Positions 2,325 to 10,303 of a stretch of 64,000 nucleotides of DNA are shown piece by piece; the first letter of the stretch is position 1, and each line of letters begins with the position of its first letter. The stretch covers positions 701,272 through 765,271 of the forward strand of contig NEWR02000009.1 of NCBI GenBank assembly GCA_002869885.2, given 5' to 3'. Source of the stretch: Nitrospira sp. CG24C. Its GTDB lineage: Bacteria; Nitrospirota; Nitrospiria; Nitrospirales; Nitrospiraceae. Under the pieces are notes generated by a model, which did not search any database, was not told the origin of the DNA, and saw only the letters and a list, made by a program, of their open reading frames with translations. The position numbers were made by a program, and so were the translations under genes.

Positions 2325-3415
2325 GATTTCAAGAAAGGATAGTCCGTATACCCCTTTTCACCGCCGCCATAAAAAGTATTTCTGTCGTAGCGATTGAGCG
2401 ACGCCCCCGTTTCAAAGCGTGTAGGCAAATCGGGATTGGCGAGGAACAACCGCCCAAAGGCAATCCCATCCGCCAGCTCGTCGGTGACGGCTTCCTCGGC
2501 GGTCTCTCGTTGATAGCCACCAGCTGAGATCAGTTTCCCCTTAAACATTTTTCGAAAGAGCTGGGCCGTGCTCGGTGCGCCTTCATTCACACTGTCACTC
2601 CCTCCGGCATTCGTCGCTCTCGGTTCAATCATGTGCAGATAGGCCAGCCGCAACGGATTCAGCTGTTCAATCACATAGGTGAACAGACCGAGGGTATCGG
2701 TATCGGACATGTCGTTAAACGTGCCGTAGGGCGACAACCTGATCCCCACCCGCTCACTGCCCCACACATCAATGACGGCTTTCAAAACTCCGAGGACGAT
2801 GCGGGTCCGATTGGCCACAGTGCCGCCATAGGCATCGGTTCTGTGGTTACTGCCATCCTGGAGAAATTGATCCAACAAGTATCCATTGGCGGCATGGACT
2901 TCGACACCATCAAAGCCTGCAGCCTTGGCCTGGGTGGCGGCGTGACGGTACGAGGCAATGATGTCGACAATCTCGCTCACGGAAAGTGCGCGAGGCGTCT
3001 CATAGTCCACTAATTGCCAAGAGGCGGTATAGACTTGGCCCGTCGGCGCAATGGCTGACGGCGCAACTGGGACGCCTTCTTCGGGATGGTGTGAGGAATG
3101 AGAGATTCTGCCGACGTGCCAGAGCTGCGACACAATCTTGCCACCCTTGGCATGGACGGCGGACGTGACCCTACGCCATCCTGCCACTTGCTCATCACTA
3201 TAGATGCCTGGAGTGCCAGGGTACCCTTTGCCCAAGGGACAAATCTGACTGGCTTCCGTGATGATGAATCCCGCGCTCGCCCGTTGCGAATAGTATTCAG
3301 CGGCGAATGGGCCGGGAACATCTCCCGCTCCCGCCCGCATCCGTGTGAGCGGCGCCATGATCACGCGATTCGATGCGACAATGGCTCCAAAGGTTTCTGC
3401 TGTCAATAATTTCAT
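2321..3415 (-). CDS. Alkene reductase, Old Yellow Enzyme family
   Basis: A 364-residue FMN-dependent TIM-barrel oxidoreductase. Family marks are APLTRMRA near the N-terminus, SQLWHVGR, the catalytic HAANGYLLDQFLQD loop (His and Asn bind the substrate carbonyl), NHRTDAYGG, and near the C-terminus the phosphate loop AFGRLFLANPDL. These enzymes reduce activated C=C bonds of enals and enones, or nitro groups, with NAD(P)H; NemA and OYE are examples. The start at 3415 (MKLLTAETFG) fits the family; an upstream extension of 29 residues is not conserved-looking. The stop codon lies inside a MITE end, so the last residues may have been altered by insertion. Confidence 0.9.
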   Translation of the reverse strand: MKLLTAETFGAIVASNRVIMAPLTRMRAGAGDVPGPFAAEYYSQRASAGFIITEASQICPLGKGYPGTPGIYSDEQVAGWRRVTSAVHAKGGKIVSQLWHVGRISHSSHHPEEGVPVAPSAIAPTGQVYTASWQLVDYETPRALSVSEIVDIIASYRHAATQAKAAGFDGVEVHAANGYLLDQFLQDGSNHRTDAYGGTVANRTRIVLGVLKAVIDVWGSERVGIRLSPYGTFNDMSDTDTLGLFTYVIEQLNPLRLAYLHMIEPRATNAGGSDSVNEGAPSTAQLFRKMFKGKLISAGGYQRETAEEAVTDELADGIAFGRLFLANPDLPTRFETGASLNRYDRNTFYGGGEKGYTDYPFLKS

Positions 3416-3544
3416 AGAGGACACGCCCTTTTCGTTGAACGGTTGTGGATCATGAGCGACTGACTGATAGCTTAGTGGAAAGACATAGTGGAGACGCACC
3501 ATGGGAAGCCCAGCCGGTCTCCAACCGCCCTGTGGGTGTTCCCT

Positions 3545-3823
3545 TCAGGGAAGGGGCTCGCCCGACAAGAGCTGTTGCGCCTGGATGATCGCCTCCAGCA
3601 ATGCGCTCCGTTCCTCTTGCAGCTTCTTCGAAGGCGGCACGCTCGCCACAAATCGTTCCGCCGCTGCAGTCAAGGTCTGCAGCGTCTCGGCCATATCCCC
3701 CTTCCCAGGGGCAGGAGCCGACGAGGCTTCACGTAACAGCGCGCGCCTCCTCCTGGGCCCGACATACATCTGCGGGGCAATCGGGTTATCTTTTTCCAAC
3801 TCGGGTCGTCGAAATACCGCCAT
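3545..3823 (-). CDS. Hypothetical protein, 92 residues
   Basis: Not recognised. It is basic near the middle (GPRRRRALLRE), followed by a Pro/Ala-rich linker and a predicted helical C-terminal half (METL-type heptads running to LLEAIIQAQQLL) that could form a coiled coil. There is no signal peptide or membrane segment. It lies upstream of nothing on its own strand and stands apart from the alkene reductase by about 130 bases. Composition looks like real protein rather than a shadow frame, but the gene call is tentative. Confidence 0.45.
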   Translation of the reverse strand: MAVFRRPELEKDNPIAPQMYVGPRRRRALLREASSAPAPGKGDMAETLQTLTAAAERFVASVPPSKKLQEERSALLEAIIQAQQLLSGEPLP

Positions 3824-4330
3824 GGCTCCTCCAACAGATCAGACAACGAGAAATAATCCGCACACTGTACTCGATTCGCATCGGCAATTGCATCGGGGCG
3901 TGGGCACAAGGGGGAAAGGGTGCGGAGCGCTTCGGCAGAATGTCGGATGCGGGCGATGCGTGAGACCCGCGCGACTGGCGGGAAGGTTTCCGATTAAGTA
4001 GCCGTCCCCTTTTCTCCTTCCCTGGTTTTCTCTCACACTCCGCTTATTGAACTGAAGGGCGTAACCATCGAGCCGAGGCACAATCCAGCCCAACAAAGTG
4101 CGCTGCACCCGCGCTTCAATATGCCGACGATTCATATTCGATGGGTATGCGAAACGCCACATTGAGATCAACCAGTCCCGGAGAAAAGATCAACTTGGAG
4201 GAATTCTAACGAGGCAGGGCCAACCACACAATGCCGCGTGCGCGGACGAGTCAAAAACTGCTTTTGGAAACCACCAAACCACGAGGTGCAAGGTCAAGAA
4301 ATGACCCCACGAGTTTTTCCAAGAAATCGA
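3824..4330. other. Gene-poor stretch left of the defence-like cassette
   Basis: No gene is supported. A minus-strand frame from about 4132 (MNRRHIEARVQRTLL) looks protein-like for some 40 residues, then loses sense, so it may be the remnant of a broken gene. GC falls across this stretch toward the cassette. A 22-bp repeat lies at 4288-4309. No tRNA or integrase is visible. Confidence 0.4.
4288..4309 (+). repeat. 22-bp flanking repeat, left copy
   Basis: The motif contains the small palindrome GGTCA-AGAAA-TGACC. It matches 21 of 22 bases of the inverted copy at 8356-8377. The pair brackets the four-gene cassette: this copy ends 21 bases beyond the 3' end of the last gene. The GGGGTCA/TGACCCC character resembles REP sequences handled by RAYT transposases, though no RAYT gene is present. 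Confidence 0.6.
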
Positions 4331-4870
4331 TTAGGTTGAAGCTTCGACTAGGCAGACATCCCACTTTTTACGGCTACTACTGGCGAGTGAGCTCCGAAAT
4401 ATTTCCATCGAAGATGAAAGCAGTTCCATATCGTCGAACAAAATTACTATTGGGCCCCTTGGTGAAGAATCAGGCTGACGAAGGACTTTATTGATCTTAT
4501 TCACTATAAGAGCGGGATTGAGATTTACATCCCACTTACATGAGATTCCCAAGATTCCCGTAGTATCAACGTATCTGATTTTGTTTTCTCTAAACACTTC
4601 AAATGCGACTTTCCGATTGAGGCGCCCTAAATCAAAGCGTGGAGTAGGCCTCATATCCACTACTACAGATGGCTGAGCTTCATCTAACAAAGAGAGAAAA
4701 CGATCGCCAGATAAGTGTGTTGTGTTTGCGAAAATGAGCAGGGATGTCTTCGGCATCGGGAATAGATCTGGCTGGAAGAGCATTTGCTTATAGCGTACGC
4801 GCTGTCCTTGAGTCTGCAAACCAGACGGTTTCAGTAGCTTTAAGCGAGTGAGATCTCTGGAACTTGTCAT
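4331..4870 (-). CDS. DUF488-like protein, last gene of the defence-like cassette
   Basis: 179 residues. After about 40 poorly ordered N-terminal residues comes a pattern that resembles DUF488: a strand LLIFANTTH, helix DRFLSLLDEA, strand VVVDMRPTPRFD (about residues 69-80), RLNRKVAFEVFRENKIRYVDT, then a glycine turn. DUF488 proteins normally start with TIGHSN and carry VDVRS.P; here the GHS motif is missing, so any catalytic role may be changed. The ATG follows the deaminase stop codon by a single base (TGA-A-ATG), which implies translational coupling. The last helix-strand part (PIVILFDDMELLSSS) is not typical of DUF488. Function unknown. Confidence 0.6.
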   Translation of the reverse strand: MTSSRDLTRLKLLKPSGLQTQGQRVRYKQMLFQPDLFPMPKTSLLIFANTTHLSGDRFLSLLDEAQPSVVVDMRPTPRFDLGRLNRKVAFEVFRENKIRYVDTTGILGISCKWDVNLNPALIVNKINKVLRQPDSSPRGPIVILFDDMELLSSSMEIFRSSLASSSRKKWDVCLVEAST

Positions 4871-4871
4871 T

Positions 4872-6461
4872 TCAGTTACACCCCTTTACCAATTCCGCTT
4901 CAATTTCCACATAGCTGATACGCCTCAGATCCCATGGGCTTCCCCATTCAGGAGCACCTATTCTTGCGAGACCTGTTTCATTATTCTTGAGCTCCCGATC
5001 TTTCATGAAAGCTCTTTTGTAGAGATTTGGAGCAACACCTGTGAAGGGATGAAACAGTACTTTGCTACCCCCCTTACTTGGGGGGATCCATCCTTGATGG
5101 TTTAGCGTTATTGAGTCAGGATGAAGATCTAATGCTTTGCTTTTTGGATAAGGTTCAATGAACTGAACCTCATCTACCCCAGCACCCACTATATGTCGCG
5201 CACAATAGTGACAAGGAAAAGTGGTTACCCACATTCTTGTCCCAACAGAAGATACTCCTTTACGCGCAGCCGTTAGTAAGGCATCCATCTCCGCATGAAC
5301 TGCCCTACTGAACTCTAGTAGCCCCCCAATCCTAGACCGCCTTAGTAAACTCTGCAAGGCCTCCTTGGACTGCTTTCTAAGGGGCGGAAACTGCTTGAAC
5401 ACTTCATCAACTATCTCCTTCACAATTTCATTCTGTTCCTCTGTATTTCGACAATAGATTCTGTCGCCATAATAGGCACACCGCCCATCAACCTGAACAG
5501 GTTCAAAGCTTTCTCCGTACAGCCCTCCTCCGGCTACAGGAACTTCATTTGTCCCCGTTGCAACAACATTTCCGTTCACATCAATTACACACGCGCCTAC
5601 CTGACGAGACAAACACGCGCTCCTAAGCGCAGCGCCCTGAGCCTCAAACATTGCTGTCTCGCCAATAGTTGGCCGAACGATGTCAGAATGCGTGATGACC
5701 TTCACGAGCCGACCCAAGTCCTCATTAATTGTCCACAGCTCATTTGATGATGTGTCTTCCTCGATTCTATCTACACTGTTGTCAACGAAGTAGTCAGACA
5801 AATGGAAAGCGTCTAAAACTTTTTGCCCGTAGTCCTGAGGAGCCTTGGCATCTCGCTCCATAAATTCCTGCGCATTCCTGTTTCCAGCATCAGAATACTT
5901 TTCGTGGAGGCGATTAAGTCGTGTCGATTGCTCACATACAATTCCAATTAATGTAAAAGATGATCCGTATACACTTCGCAGAAGATGCACTTCAGCGGGA
6001 TGACGGATCGATTCCAAGATATAAGCTCGTCGTTTTCCATCAGGCTTGATGGGTCCGTCATCAGCGACCTTAATTCCTTGTTTCTTAGCCCTAGTTAGTC
6101 TGATAGTTTTCACCAAGGCCCTAGCAATAGCCGACTGGTCAGCCTGTCTCATTTTGTCTCCCAGATCTTGGAGACGGCTGACGCTCGTCAAGGTCTTAGT
6201 CAACGCTGGAACTGCCTCCCCTTCTCTCTTCGCCCACTCCCTGATCCTATCTGAAGCTTTAATTACTTCGGTCTCGTATGGTCCTCCCGGGAGTGCCTTG
6301 CTCTCCAAAATCGACTTTAAGCTGCGAGCTATTTCGCTTGTTCCCGAACCAACATGGCCGACAACAGCAAAAATAAGCTCATTAGCGCTATGCTCTGCGA
6401 GAATTTCACGAGCCTGCTTTGTTATGATTTGCGAAATAGGTATTAACTTTGGAGTGGCCAT
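4872..6461 (-). CDS. Anti-phage dCTP deaminase-like protein (DCD/AvcD family)
   Basis: 529 residues with the two-part build of the anti-phage deoxycytidylate deaminases. The N-terminal half is kinase-like, with a phosphate-binding loop GHVGSGTS at residues 35-42 in which the usual Walker lysine is threonine. The C-terminal half is a zinc cytidine-deaminase fold with HAE at 389-391 (zinc ligand and catalytic Glu391) and PCHYC at 416-420 (two zinc cysteines). Known relatives deaminate dCTP and dCMP during infection and starve the phage of nucleotides. The gene is third of four, 67 bases after tcmP and one base before the DUF488-like gene. Base composition is visibly AT-richer than the chromosome around it. 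Confidence 0.85.
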   Translation of the reverse strand: MATPKLIPISQIITKQAREILAEHSANELIFAVVGHVGSGTSEIARSLKSILESKALPGGPYETEVIKASDRIREWAKREGEAVPALTKTLTSVSRLQDLGDKMRQADQSAIARALVKTIRLTRAKKQGIKVADDGPIKPDGKRRAYILESIRHPAEVHLLRSVYGSSFTLIGIVCEQSTRLNRLHEKYSDAGNRNAQEFMERDAKAPQDYGQKVLDAFHLSDYFVDNSVDRIEEDTSSNELWTINEDLGRLVKVITHSDIVRPTIGETAMFEAQGAALRSACLSRQVGACVIDVNGNVVATGTNEVPVAGGGLYGESFEPVQVDGRCAYYGDRIYCRNTEEQNEIVKEIVDEVFKQFPPLRKQSKEALQSLLRRSRIGGLLEFSRAVHAEMDALLTAARKGVSSVGTRMWVTTFPCHYCARHIVGAGVDEVQFIEPYPKSKALDLHPDSITLNHQGWIPPSKGGSKVLFHPFTGVAPNLYKRAFMKDRELKNNETGLARIGAPEWGSPWDLRRISYVEIEAELVKGCN

Positions 6462-6528
6462 ATTTACATGTACCTGAATTGCGAAATAGCAACAACCGCG
6501 TACGCTATTGGGCTTCCTTCCAATATAG

Positions 6529-7437
6529 TCAAGTCAGGAATTCAGCAAGATCTAACTTCAATTGTTCGATAGGCTCTAGTGGAGTGACCGCTTTCCTGTA
6601 TGCACGTGACATCAGAGAAGGCGCAAGAGGATGATCAGTGGCGTGAATCATGTAGTACATTATTGCCCCGCCATCGTTCCTTTCAAAAATTGGCCACGGT
6701 TTCACGGAATTGTACCCGAGTTCTTCTTTAAATCTCCGGACGATTAATTCTACTCTTTGACTTGAGTCAATGTCATAGAGCCTCTTCCAATCCTCTCGCC
6801 CCCACCACTGTTCAACCCGCGTGGTATCTTTTATCCCTGAAAGGGCTCTGCTGAACCAATGATTTGGGAGAAAGTAAAACAGTTCTATCTTGTTCCCCGA
6901 AGTCTTATACCGAGCCAGACGCACCAGAGTTTCCCATCGGCATTCGAAAGTTCTCTGGTCAAGCAGACAGAAGCACGCTTCGCTCATCTTAATCTTCTGA
7001 GCGCTCAGTAAGCCTAACACCGTGGCATTAAAGTCGCCGGGAATTATTTCTATGGTGCGTTTAGGATCTGATGGCTGAGCCTCCTTCAATTTCTGCAAGG
7101 CCTCAACTTGCTCTTCCCCAGCATCAAACAGATAAAAGTTTCGAAACCACCTAGGCTCACTTTCTAGCACCAATTTAGCAGCCCACATATGTGGTTTATC
7201 AGGCTCCTGCGGGCCTGCAAACCCATCAATGTAGGTGCCATGCTTTGTGATCATTACAAAATAGAACAGATACCGTGATATTAGCTTAGACTTGTTCTCT
7301 GTCCAAATGGGTTCTCTGATAGGAGAAACTTCAGGCTCCGGTGGAGGACCTGGAGGGATATCGAATAGTTGTTCGGACTGTAACTGTTGCCTGATTACTG
7401 GCTTGCGTTTCTTGATTTTGGTTCGACGTAGGCTCAA
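6529..7437 (-). CDS. tcmP: Three-Cys-motif partner protein TcmP
   Basis: 302 residues. The hallmark motif HGTYIDGFAGPQ lies at about residues 66-77, followed by an acidic strand NFYLFDAG and by CLLDQRTFECRWETL (Asp160) and KIELFYFLP. The layout recalls a Rossmann-type methyltransferase fold, but no activity is established for the family. TcmP genes are named for sitting beside three-Cys-motif proteins, and here the gene follows one after 63 bases. The start at 7437 is TTG without a good Shine-Dalgarno site; no in-frame ATG lies near, so the N-terminus is uncertain. The first 40 residues are basic and then proline-rich. Confidence 0.82.
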   Translation of the reverse strand: MSLRRTKIKKRKPVIRQQLQSEQLFDIPPGPPPEPEVSPIREPIWTENKSKLISRYLFYFVMITKHGTYIDGFAGPQEPDKPHMWAAKLVLESEPRWFRNFYLFDAGEEQVEALQKLKEAQPSDPKRTIEIIPGDFNATVLGLLSAQKIKMSEACFCLLDQRTFECRWETLVRLARYKTSGNKIELFYFLPNHWFSRALSGIKDTTRVEQWWGREDWKRLYDIDSSQRVELIVRRFKEELGYNSVKPWPIFERNDGGAIMYYMIHATDHPLAPSLMSRAYRKAVTPLEPIEQLKLDLAEFLT

Positions 7438-7500
7438 TTTATATGCGCTAGATAGGTGGTTATTAACTGCATATCTCCAAACTTAGGCCCAACCAGATGC

Positions 7501-8247
7501 TTATCGTAATGCCTGAAAAATCGGTATGGCTTGAGGTTTCACGCGAGGCATCTCGTTCCAGACTTTCCGATCCAGCCGTCTTCCGCCAGCTTTTGGTGTA
7601 AACCCACCCCATTGCTTGAAAAAGAATGGCACTTTCTTATCTAGGCATTGATCTCGTATCTCACGCACCCAACTGGCCTCTACAGGCCTATAGTCAGGCC
7701 CGCTCTCTCCACCAACAATGACCCAGGATATCCCTTTGAGTGGTAGTCTTGGTATGGGACCAAGCAACGGCTCCACGGATACAAATCGGACGGCGGCAGG
7801 AACCTTTCGAAGCCTATCCACCCTCCATATATAGTCGCGACTTTCTACCGATACTCCTTGCCAAACGTTTTCTGGCCAAGGCAATTGCGGAGCTAGTTCC
7901 GCCAAACGCTCCGCTCTTTTTGTGAGTACTTGAAAGGAATGCCAATGCGCCTTCTCCATAACCTCAAACGTCTTGAAAATGAAACTATCTGGGACTTCTT
8001 CATGAAAAAGATCGCTCATACTGTTTACGAAGATCTTTTTCGGCTGTTTCCAACGAAGGGGTAGTGTGAGCTGATCTGGATGAAGAGTGACTGCGAAGCC
8101 GTTGGTGTAGCGCGGATTACCCATTACTTGAAGCCGACCCGCTAGCCGTTCTGCATAGCAATTCTTGCAACCCGGACTTACTTTCGAGCACCCAGTTATC
8201 GGGTTCCAAGTTGCATCGGTCCATTCAATAGCTGATTTGTCTCCCAC
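7501..8247 (-). CDS. DUF5131 (phage Gp37/Gp68) three-Cys-motif protein
   Basis: 248 residues with the typical start [20 protein letters not shown], then cysteines at 20, 27 and 30 (CX6CX2C), which suggest an iron-sulfur or zinc site. A repeating beta-alpha pattern follows: [49 protein letters not shown]. This is consistent with a barrel related to radical-SAM enzymes, but the reaction is unknown. The GTG start at 8247 is chosen because GGAGG lies five bases upstream and family members begin here; the frame stays open 63 codons further up without recognisable sequence. First gene of the four-gene cassette, partner of TcmP. Confidence 0.83.
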
Positions 8248-8355
8248 TAGCTCCTCCGATAGGCGCTTATTATAGCCCTGCTGGTCAGACGTGTATACGA
8301 GATGAACCACGCTATGAATCGAAGAGAGGGCTTCTGGAGAAGGTGAGGGAAGTAC

Positions 8356-8377
8356 TGGGGTCATTGCTTGACCTTGC
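8356..8377 (-). repeat. 22-bp flanking repeat, right copy
   Basis: Inverted copy of the sequence at 4288-4309, differing at one base in the loop of its palindrome (GGTCATTGCTTGACC). It lies 109 bases upstream of the first gene of the cassette, so promoter and leader lie between it and the coding region. Confidence 0.6.
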
Positions 8378-9138
8378 CCTTCAGCACCTACGAGAGCGGC
8401 CAGGGACCGTGATGCGGGACGAGCGAGACGGGCCAAACGAGATCTGTAAAACTCAACTCTTCACCCGCATCCAGCGAGGCGGCCGAACAGAAAAAAGTGT
8501 CAGGAACCATTTCGGCACTCGCACAAACATACATTCATCTAAAGGTCGCGACCTTCCTTGTTTGTTCCATCAGAGATAACCTCAGAGAGGTTAGGCTTCC
8601 ATTCACTGAATCCGCCGCAGAATACCCCTTTCCTAACGGTAAATCACGCCCCCCAGGGGATGCCTTTGGGCTTCGCGAACACGACAGGAGGAACGAGATA
8701 TCCGCAGGACTGAGCAGGGGGAACGCTGGGACCTAGGCCTCGCACAAGGAGTGATAACCAATATCCTTCTCTCCACCCAGGTGAGCGAGTGCGGCCCGCG
8801 ACATTCGCCGTAGTGGCGGGGCCCCACCCGGCGTCCTGAGAAGGAAAGCTGGAACTGACCGAAGCATCACGGTTGGCATAACCGTGACTGAGGGAATTCC
8901 AGAAGGCTTCCGCTCGGACCGCCGTGGAAGGGGTGCCACGAGAGGCGACGGAGCGCGGCGCACTCGCTCACCTGCTCCCTGCTCTGGGAGGTCTAGGAGC
9001 GAGGCACGGAGGCATCCCACTTCTACTCCTTTCCTCGTGAGAAATCATTCGGCCCCTTCAGGGACGTTCTGAGTTATGAGTTCTGAGTTTGGAGTTGTCT
9101 GGTCCAGTACTGAGATCTAGGAGAGGGGTTGAGGACGT
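8378..9138. other. Long gene-free, repeat-bearing region
   Basis: No gene is supported over about 760 bases. It contains the 21-base CT/CG motif (8412-8432, inverted, also at 1387-1407), the sequence GTGTCAGGAACCATTT (8497-8512), a long imperfect palindrome (8780-8972), and a hairpin CACGGTT-GGCAT-AACCGTG inside the latter. Confidence 0.6.
8780..8972. repeat. 193-bp imperfect palindrome
   Basis: The ends GGTGAGCGAGTGCG (8780-8793) and CGCACTCGCTCACC (8959-8972) pair perfectly over 14 bases. Pairing continues inward with interruptions, CCGCG...TTCGCC...GTGGC against its complement near 8935-8958. No coding sequence. It could be a decayed non-autonomous element or a transcribed structure. Confidence 0.5.
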
Positions 9139-9240
9139 TTGTCTGGCCTATCTTGTTTGTCTGGTTGATTTCGTTGTTCGGACCAAATGAACCAAACAAA
9201 CCAAAGAAACTAAATGAACCAGAGAAACCAGAGAGACAAG
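9139..9240. repeat. TGGTC/TTGGT low-complexity hairpin P1
   Basis: The left arm is pyrimidine/GT-rich (GTTTGTCTGGCCTATC...), the right arm is its purine/AC-rich counterpart (ACCAAATGAACCAAAC...). Together they form a long imperfect stem built from 4-5 base units. Related elements are at 17620, 21431, 21928 and 23589. This one lies upstream of the peptidase gene. Confidence 0.6.
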
Positions 9241-9301
9241 CCCAGGCTCGTTCACGGTACAATCATGGTTCTAGCGGCGCTCTCATACTGGAAACGAAAC
9301 A

Positions 9302-10303
<1,002 letters not shown>

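Follow-up and report, generated by a model that had tools for sequence, protein, structure and literature searches.

The usual view of nucleotide-depleting defence systems is that their action falls on the nucleotide pool as a whole. Homologues of AvcD are known to deaminate dCTP and dCMP and thereby to starve or poison phage DNA synthesis. In the AvcD systems of Vibrio and E. coli, the available text of PMC9455884 describes an RNA, AvcI, located upstream of avcD, that controls AvcD post-translationally. The same text describes lower phage DNA synthesis caused by AvcD and connects the way in which one phage escapes with the DNA polymerase of that phage. Based on the effect on phage DNA synthesis and the polymerase-linked escape, action of AvcD at replication is plausible. 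A second relevant system is Clover, in which, according to the accessible part of PMC12265719, the nucleotide-depleting dGTPase CloA is restrained by a partner protein, CloB, that produces an inhibitory nucleotide signal.

We analysed a stretch of 64,000 nucleotides from Nitrospira sp. CG24C (the window), in which an AvcD-type deaminase is followed directly by a second gene, here called the partner. The deaminase resembles AvcD of the AvcID system of Vibrio cholerae in its deaminase family, its zinc site (HAE and PCxxC) and its N-terminal P-loop region. It differs in having an apparently translationally coupled protein partner, whereas the two E. coli/Vibrio-like AvcDs examined have none: neither the plasmid AvcD from E. 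coli (locus L007) nor that from Photobacterium (L008) has a coupled downstream open reading frame. The pair is similar to Clover in that both are two-gene, nucleotide-depleting defences with a partner protein, but searches with Pfam, PADLOC and NCBIfam found no nucleotidyltransferase match in the window pair. A first-pass annotation of this DNA had noted that such a protein was not known to be a described partner of these deaminases. A literature search, for which most subscription journals were outside coverage, likewise found no description of a DUF488-like partner of AvcD.

An AvcD-type deaminase and its partner gene

The features of the locus are as follows.

4331 to 4870, minus strand: predicted AvcD partner, DUF488-derived and putatively adaptor-like, 179 aa (open reading frame with an ATG start)
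4868 to 4874, minus strand: TGA-A-ATG junction, from the stop codon of the deaminase to the start codon of the partner (read from the sequence)
4872 to 6461, minus strand: predicted AvcD-type anti-phage dCTP deaminase, 529 aa, with an N-terminal P-loop region (NF041025, PADLOC dCTPase)
5289 to 5297, minus strand: HAE of the deaminase zinc site, aa 389-391 (invariant in the AvcD alignment)
5202 to 5216, minus strand: PCHYC of the deaminase zinc site, aa 416-420 (invariant in the AvcD alignment)
4340 to 4744, minus strand: predicted DUF488-like alpha/beta domain of the partner, about aa 43-177 (AlphaFold2 models, hhalign)
4634 to 4657, minus strand: DMRPTPRF, the conserved D-x-R...F of the domain, aa 72-79 (partner alignments)
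4760 to 4774, minus strand: QPDLF, putative sliding-clamp-binding motif of the partner, aa 33-37 (motif scan, partner alignments)
4832 to 4843, minus strand: LKLL, an N-terminal short motif of the LxL[VL] type in the partner, aa 10-13 (partner tails)

The deaminase scored 423.6 bits against NF041025 over residues 28-492, above the curated cut-off of 400, and 504.8 bits against the PADLOC dCTPase model. Its P-loop region and its zinc site are both intact in the alignment, and HAE and PCxxC were found in 27 of 27 AvcDs of its clade. Its family and intact active site suggest that the window AvcD would be active. The partner matched no model in PADLOC or NCBIfam.

On the minus strand, the deaminase ends in AAC TGA, with the TGA at 4874-4872, followed by a single A at 4871 and the ATG of the partner at 4870-4868. 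The first-pass annotation had described this junction and had taken the one-base gap to imply a fixed stoichiometry. The junction reads directly as described; its spacing supports translational coupling only, and we do not retain the claim about stoichiometry. We compared junctions among 27 distinct pairs (26 homologues plus the window, after removal of three duplicates). The start of the partner falls between -23 and +16 nt relative to the AvcD stop, at exactly -4 in 15 of the 27 pairs and at +1, as in the window, in four (the offset of L111, -11, was counted by hand).

Upstream of AvcD in the window are genes for a three-Cys-motif partner protein, TcmP (6529-7437, minus strand), and a DUF5131 protein (7501-8436, minus strand), which together match the PADLOC candidate pair PDC-M41. 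We considered TcmP and DUF5131 as components of the system and rejected them: neither is upstream of other partner-bearing loci, and the single DUF5131 gene at another partner locus (L023) stands apart, downstream. An Rfam search of window positions 3000-10000 gave no match, a result that is informative about AvcI only if Rfam models AvcI.

The partner is conserved with one group of AvcDs

We examined 68 deaminase loci that had been collected by searching with the deaminase and not with the partner. Of 51 plasmid records matching the deaminase, 7 were examined. Counts made after this survey, such as that of the 27 distinct partners, leave out three duplicates (L015, L018 and L112), a partial match (L047) and three loci in which the HAE pattern was not found (L026, L116 and L127).

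Where the AvcD is at least 43% identical to that of the window, a homologue of the partner is present at its 3' end in every locus (28/28). Among the remaining AvcD loci it is present in 2 of 40 (L122 and L125, both divergent), giving 30 of 68 overall. The partners at these loci are 150-195 aa long. The coupling of the two genes is not due to chance, and the pairing that the first-pass annotation had proposed from a single locus extends to other homologues of the deaminase.

Searches of whole genomes gave the same picture. A profile of the partner family had a strong match in 16 of 25 genomes, exactly one in each, at AvcD loci. In 385 alphaproteobacterial genomes, 18 have AvcD and 5 have the partner (E of 1e-3 or better). 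All five partners are in AvcD genomes and adjacent to AvcD, and there are none elsewhere in the 385 (Fisher's test, 1.2e-7; 6e-5 when the two genomes used as seeds are removed). In 295 Nitrospirota genomes, AvcD was over the cut-off in six, three of which have the partner. Every one of the three strong profile matches among the 295 is in an AvcD genome; three weaker matches are canonical-looking DUF488 proteins, as judged by eye. A tblastn search with the partner found one match among 72,556 plasmid records, on a Rhizobium gallicum plasmid, directly behind AvcD. Scans with a single partner sequence confirmed none of 52 pattern matches in genome contigs and none of 11 in viral contigs, and found nothing in phages. 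The operon and its conservation are thus established computationally.

The partner domain is a diverged relative of DUF488

The partner scored 14.2 bits (E 0.072) against the Pfam DUF488 model (PF04343), below the gathering cut-off of 22.2, and one of 17 members of the partner family matched this model at E 1 or better. By profile-profile comparison, the two are the same domain. We compared the 17 partners to 18 canonical DUF488 sequences, taken from the genome of the window and its relatives, using hhalign (probability 88.9, E 2.4e-6, 116 columns, score 43.3). None of 60 column-shuffled controls scored above 17.9. In addition, a partner profile retrieves canonical-looking DUF488 proteins at 7.8e-6 to 8.8e-4.

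The partner and DUF488 have in common a D-x-R...P...F region and a strand ending in Y. VVDMRPTPRFD and RYVDT, the two stretches on which the first-pass annotation had based a resemblance to DUF488, are both present in the window protein. The further remarks of that annotation, that the GHS motif is missing and that the C-terminus is different, also agree with the alignment: GHS and C-x-E...CHR are in most of the canonical DUF488 proteins aligned and in no aligned partner. Within the partner domain, R74 and Y100 are invariant and D72 and F79 are at least 90% conserved. Outside of the D, R, Y and F positions the domain is very variable, with a mean column identity of 28%. Judged from these sequence comparisons, the partner is a diverged DUF488 relative at the superfamily level, outside of the family both by cut-off and by motifs.

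AlphaFold2 predicts a compact alpha/beta domain preceded by a disordered N-terminal tail, both for the window protein and for its homologue in L013. In the L013 model the domain spans aa 52-181 (block pLDDT of 77-95). The tail has a pLDDT under 50 at aa 10-32 in the window protein and at aa 8-43 in the L013 protein. Foldseek matched neither model to anything at E 1e-3 or better. The best VIA-align matches were to precorrin methyltransferases (Z of 7.8 and 8.4), followed by phosphatase-like folds (about 7.7); these values are around the tool's own 'common arrangement' range, and the matches are to generic alpha/beta folds. A sequence search of solved structures found no DUF488 structure for comparison. 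The predicted fold, which the first-pass annotation had suggested as a check, is in no conflict with kinship to DUF488.

A clamp-type motif in the N-terminal tail

The partner also differs from DUF488 in having the extra disordered tail, which carries two short motifs. One Gln in the tail is invariant in alignments of 17 and of 19 partners, and the remainder of the tail is barely alignable. In a 22-row alignment, MAFFT displaced the Gln column for some of the partners, and invariance of the Gln is lost. The tail of the window protein offers two candidates, Q29 (in QMLF) and Q33 (in QPDLF). One MAFFT alignment placed Q29 in the column, and it is not certain from the sequence which of the two is homologous to the conserved Gln. 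In other partners the motif, Q-x-x-[LMF], takes forms such as QLDLF, QLSLF, QLSLPF, QLSFNL, QLELDL, QASLF, QALLF, QRTLF and similar. It lies 36-46 aa, mostly 38-41 aa, before the DxR strand; AlphaFold2 predicts the tail to be disordered up to the motif, in keeping with a motif in a disordered or exposed segment.

These sequences resemble peptides that bind the beta sliding clamp. The available text of PMC11139829 defines the beta-clamp-binding motif as Q-phi-x-[LM]-[FL] or Q-phi-x-[LM]-x-[FL] and names QLDLF as the strongest clamp peptide in several studies. The strict literature pattern occurs in 10 of 27 tails, compared to a mean of 0.56 in shuffled tails (maximum of 4 in 5000 shuffles) and to 3 of 157 background N-termini. 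A relaxed pattern, which allows any residue at position 2, F at position 4 and Y at position 6, and which was composed after the sequences were seen, the motif having been spotted before the patterns were fixed, occurs in 26 of 27 tails, compared to a shuffled mean of 2.9 (maximum of 10 in 5000 shuffles) and to 11 of 157 background open reading frames. Because the partners are homologous, the 26 occurrences are not independent events. The sole exception is L125, which has EGNLF and no Q.

The window motif, QPDLF, has a Pro at position 2 as its sole mismatch to the strict pattern, which 17 of the 27 tails fail in all. DnaE of the host has QTNIF at the position expected for its internal clamp motif (located by eye), which suggests that this lineage tolerates a non-aliphatic residue at position 2.

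The second tail motif, LxL[VLAP], lies within the first 22 aa of 20 of the 27 partners, compared to 14 of 157 background open reading frames. It is possible that an LxLV-type strand at the N-terminus of the partner is a segment that docks on AvcD.

There is a precedent for such an arrangement. Hda of E. coli is an AAA+ protein that regulates DnaA while docked on the beta clamp. Its clamp peptide, PAQLSLPLYL, is in a disordered N-terminus, as described in the accessible part of PMC11139829. The partner is similar to Hda in that a clamp-type peptide in a disordered N-terminus precedes a folded domain. They differ in that the fold of Hda is unrelated to that of the partner and Hda is not a defence protein.

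Partner classes on the AvcD tree

In a tree of 61 AvcDs, those with the partner make up one side of one branch (support 98). We assigned the downstream genes to four classes: DUF488-like, a short open reading frame with a QxxLF-type motif, a short open reading frame with WPxW, and none or other. These classes change 8 times on the tree, compared to 29.8 when shuffled, with the labels 'smallQ' (13 AvcDs) and 'WPxW' (7 AvcDs) assigned partly by eye. So few changes indicate that the downstream partner switches between clades and that the DUF488-like partner is constant inside the clade of the window.

Twenty-six AvcD loci without a DUF488-like partner have a short open reading frame (45-120 aa) that starts near the AvcD stop. 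Eight of these 26 contain a clamp-type motif, as scored with a pattern of our own that predates our use of the literature definition, compared to a shuffled mean of 0.15 and a maximum of 2. The motifs found behind these other AvcDs are QLDLF, QLSLEF, QLSLDF, QLTLDF, QLSLKL, QPSLL and QTSLL. A WPxW[KM]-type motif is present in seven short open reading frames (L041, L043, L113, L117, L120, L123 and L126).

The eight frames with a clamp-type motif (L025, L028, L029, L033, L035, L042, L114 and L118) are 65-94 aa long, and we know of no family to which they belong. In several of them, a [KN][VI]I-x-L/F segment and a basic C-terminal stretch come after the motif. The WPxW-type frames stand behind deep-branching AvcDs. 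The AvcD in L034, which ends at 6015, carries a C-terminal clamp-type peptide of its own, QPALFDA.

Fusions of the partner to SPARTA

In two loci, the partner domain forms the N-terminal part of a longer protein, of 605 aa in L003 (Rhizobium gallicum) and 663 aa in L107 (genome G665). The remainder of each protein matches TIR-APAZ (366.8 and 452.4 bits, respectively), and the fusion gene is followed by a short pAgo (575.4 and 680 bits). Both loci thus contain SPARTA, but with two differences: the SPARTA match in PADLOC does not begin until some 190 aa of partner domain have passed, and directly in front of the fusion gene stands a coupled AvcD gene. The clamp-type motif is present in both fusions, as QASLF in L003 and QSNLF in L107; like the conserved Q motif in the predicted disordered tail, the fusions are a computational observation. 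A comparison of a single with a double origin of the fusion gave a p-AU of 0.166. Being fused to TIR-APAZ in these loci, the partner module is portable, and it ties together two defence systems usually considered separately. In the window there is no TIR-APAZ and no pAgo, and the open reading frame of the partner stops after the DUF488-like domain.

The AvcD of R. gallicum (L003, 4291-5908) is in two overlapping frames, and the fused TIR-APAZ and the pAgo behind it are open. This copy of AvcD is probably broken or misread.

Possible roles of the partner

A catalytic deaminase, a partner stripped of the DUF488 motifs and a tail that has kept a clamp-type peptide are together consistent with a partner that connects AvcD to the sliding clamp as an adaptor. 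The notion that we prefer, and to which we give an even chance, is that the partner docks the deaminase on the clamp, as a tether or as a trigger. The two genes would then make up one anti-phage unit. AvcD would be the catalytic subunit, starving or poisoning phage DNA synthesis by deamination of dCTP/dCMP, and the partner would be a non-catalytic adaptor. The DUF488-derived domain, the N-terminal LxLV strand, or both would hold AvcD, and the Q-x-x-L-F peptide of the disordered tail would be available to the hydrophobic cleft of the beta sliding clamp. Clamps loaded on DNA at replication forks would thereby carry the deaminase or switch it on. The closest model for this is E. coli Hda, which acts while held on the clamp through QLSLPL, a peptide at its N-terminus. 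We infer clamp binding from the sequence of the tail, and we infer that the partner binds AvcD and that clamp docking serves as a tether or switch.

Given a conserved subunit that bears a clamp-type peptide, the replisome would be where the enzyme is brought or the route by which it is sensed. What AvcD senses and where it acts could then be probed through point changes in one short peptide. Clamp docking would not be a general need of AvcD, since the WPxW-type AvcDs and those with no downstream open reading frame do without the motif. More tentatively, and with rather less confidence than we have in the adaptor itself, a portable, DUF488-derived clamp adaptor may direct immune effectors (the dCTP deaminase and, in the fusions, a TIR-APAZ/Argonaute NADase) to forks, with replisomes as the address or the trigger. 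If so, docking on the clamp by way of one or another type of partner would recur widely among AvcDs.

The strongest alternative, which we regard as a real possibility although somewhat doubtful, is that the partner acts as a protein antitoxin, or as a switch, restraining AvcD until infection and replacing the AvcI RNA. It overlaps with docking on the clamp, because clamp binding, if any, would be the sensor of such a switch. Among the AvcDs surveyed, the partner types track the tree as if regulators had been swapped between clades, and just 67 nt separate TcmP from AvcD in the window. Furthermore, the available text of PMC12265719 describes a nucleotide-depleting effector restrained by a partner in Clover. 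In contrast, upstream gaps of <100 nt are found in 11 of 30 partner-bearing loci and in 7 of 27 others, and thus fail to distinguish the types. Searches with Pfam, PADLOC and NCBIfam gave no match to an antitoxin family, and the fusion to TIR-APAZ argues for a module that targets or scaffolds rather than an antitoxin for AvcD only.

It is also conceivable, but in our view unlikely, that the QxxLF peptide and the LxLV strand both dock on AvcD, and that the partner serves as a structural or allosteric subunit without ever contacting the clamp. Both short motifs in the tail are conserved and the pairing with AvcD is strict, as would be expected. The motif-bearing short open reading frames behind other AvcDs suit an AvcD-binding peptide equally well. 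However, QLDLF, QLSLF, QLSLPF and QLELDL match the clamp consensus in the available text of PMC11139829, and QLDLF is the strongest peptide reported there. In addition, the motif is present in two otherwise unrelated kinds of partner.

The first-pass annotation had listed an effector among the possible roles of the protein. We consider it improbable that the partner works as a second effector enzyme on nucleic acid or nucleotides, an activity that DUF488 proteins may have. Homology to DUF488 extends across the domain, and the invariant R74 and Y100 could be catalytic. Nevertheless, the conserved GHS and C-x-E...CHR motifs of DUF488 are lost, and little of the domain beyond the D, R, Y and F positions is conserved. 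Finally, the window locus is in a defence-rich stretch with TcmP and DUF5131 nearby, but the notion that the partner is a neutral hitchhiker or part of the TcmP-DUF5131 pair is hardly credible, given that neither gene is upstream of other partner-bearing loci and that, across Nitrospirota and Alphaproteobacteria, the occurrence of the partner follows only that of AvcD.

Other observations at AvcD loci

An AvcD-like frame in L026 (4501-5559) loses similarity after query residue 330 and is without a partner; it is probably a decayed copy. A cassette of multiubiquitin and ThiF genes adjoins two of the AvcD-partner loci, on the opposite strand (L005, 1118-3381; L006, 8495-10788). A third copy of this cassette, in L015, is a duplicate of that in L006.
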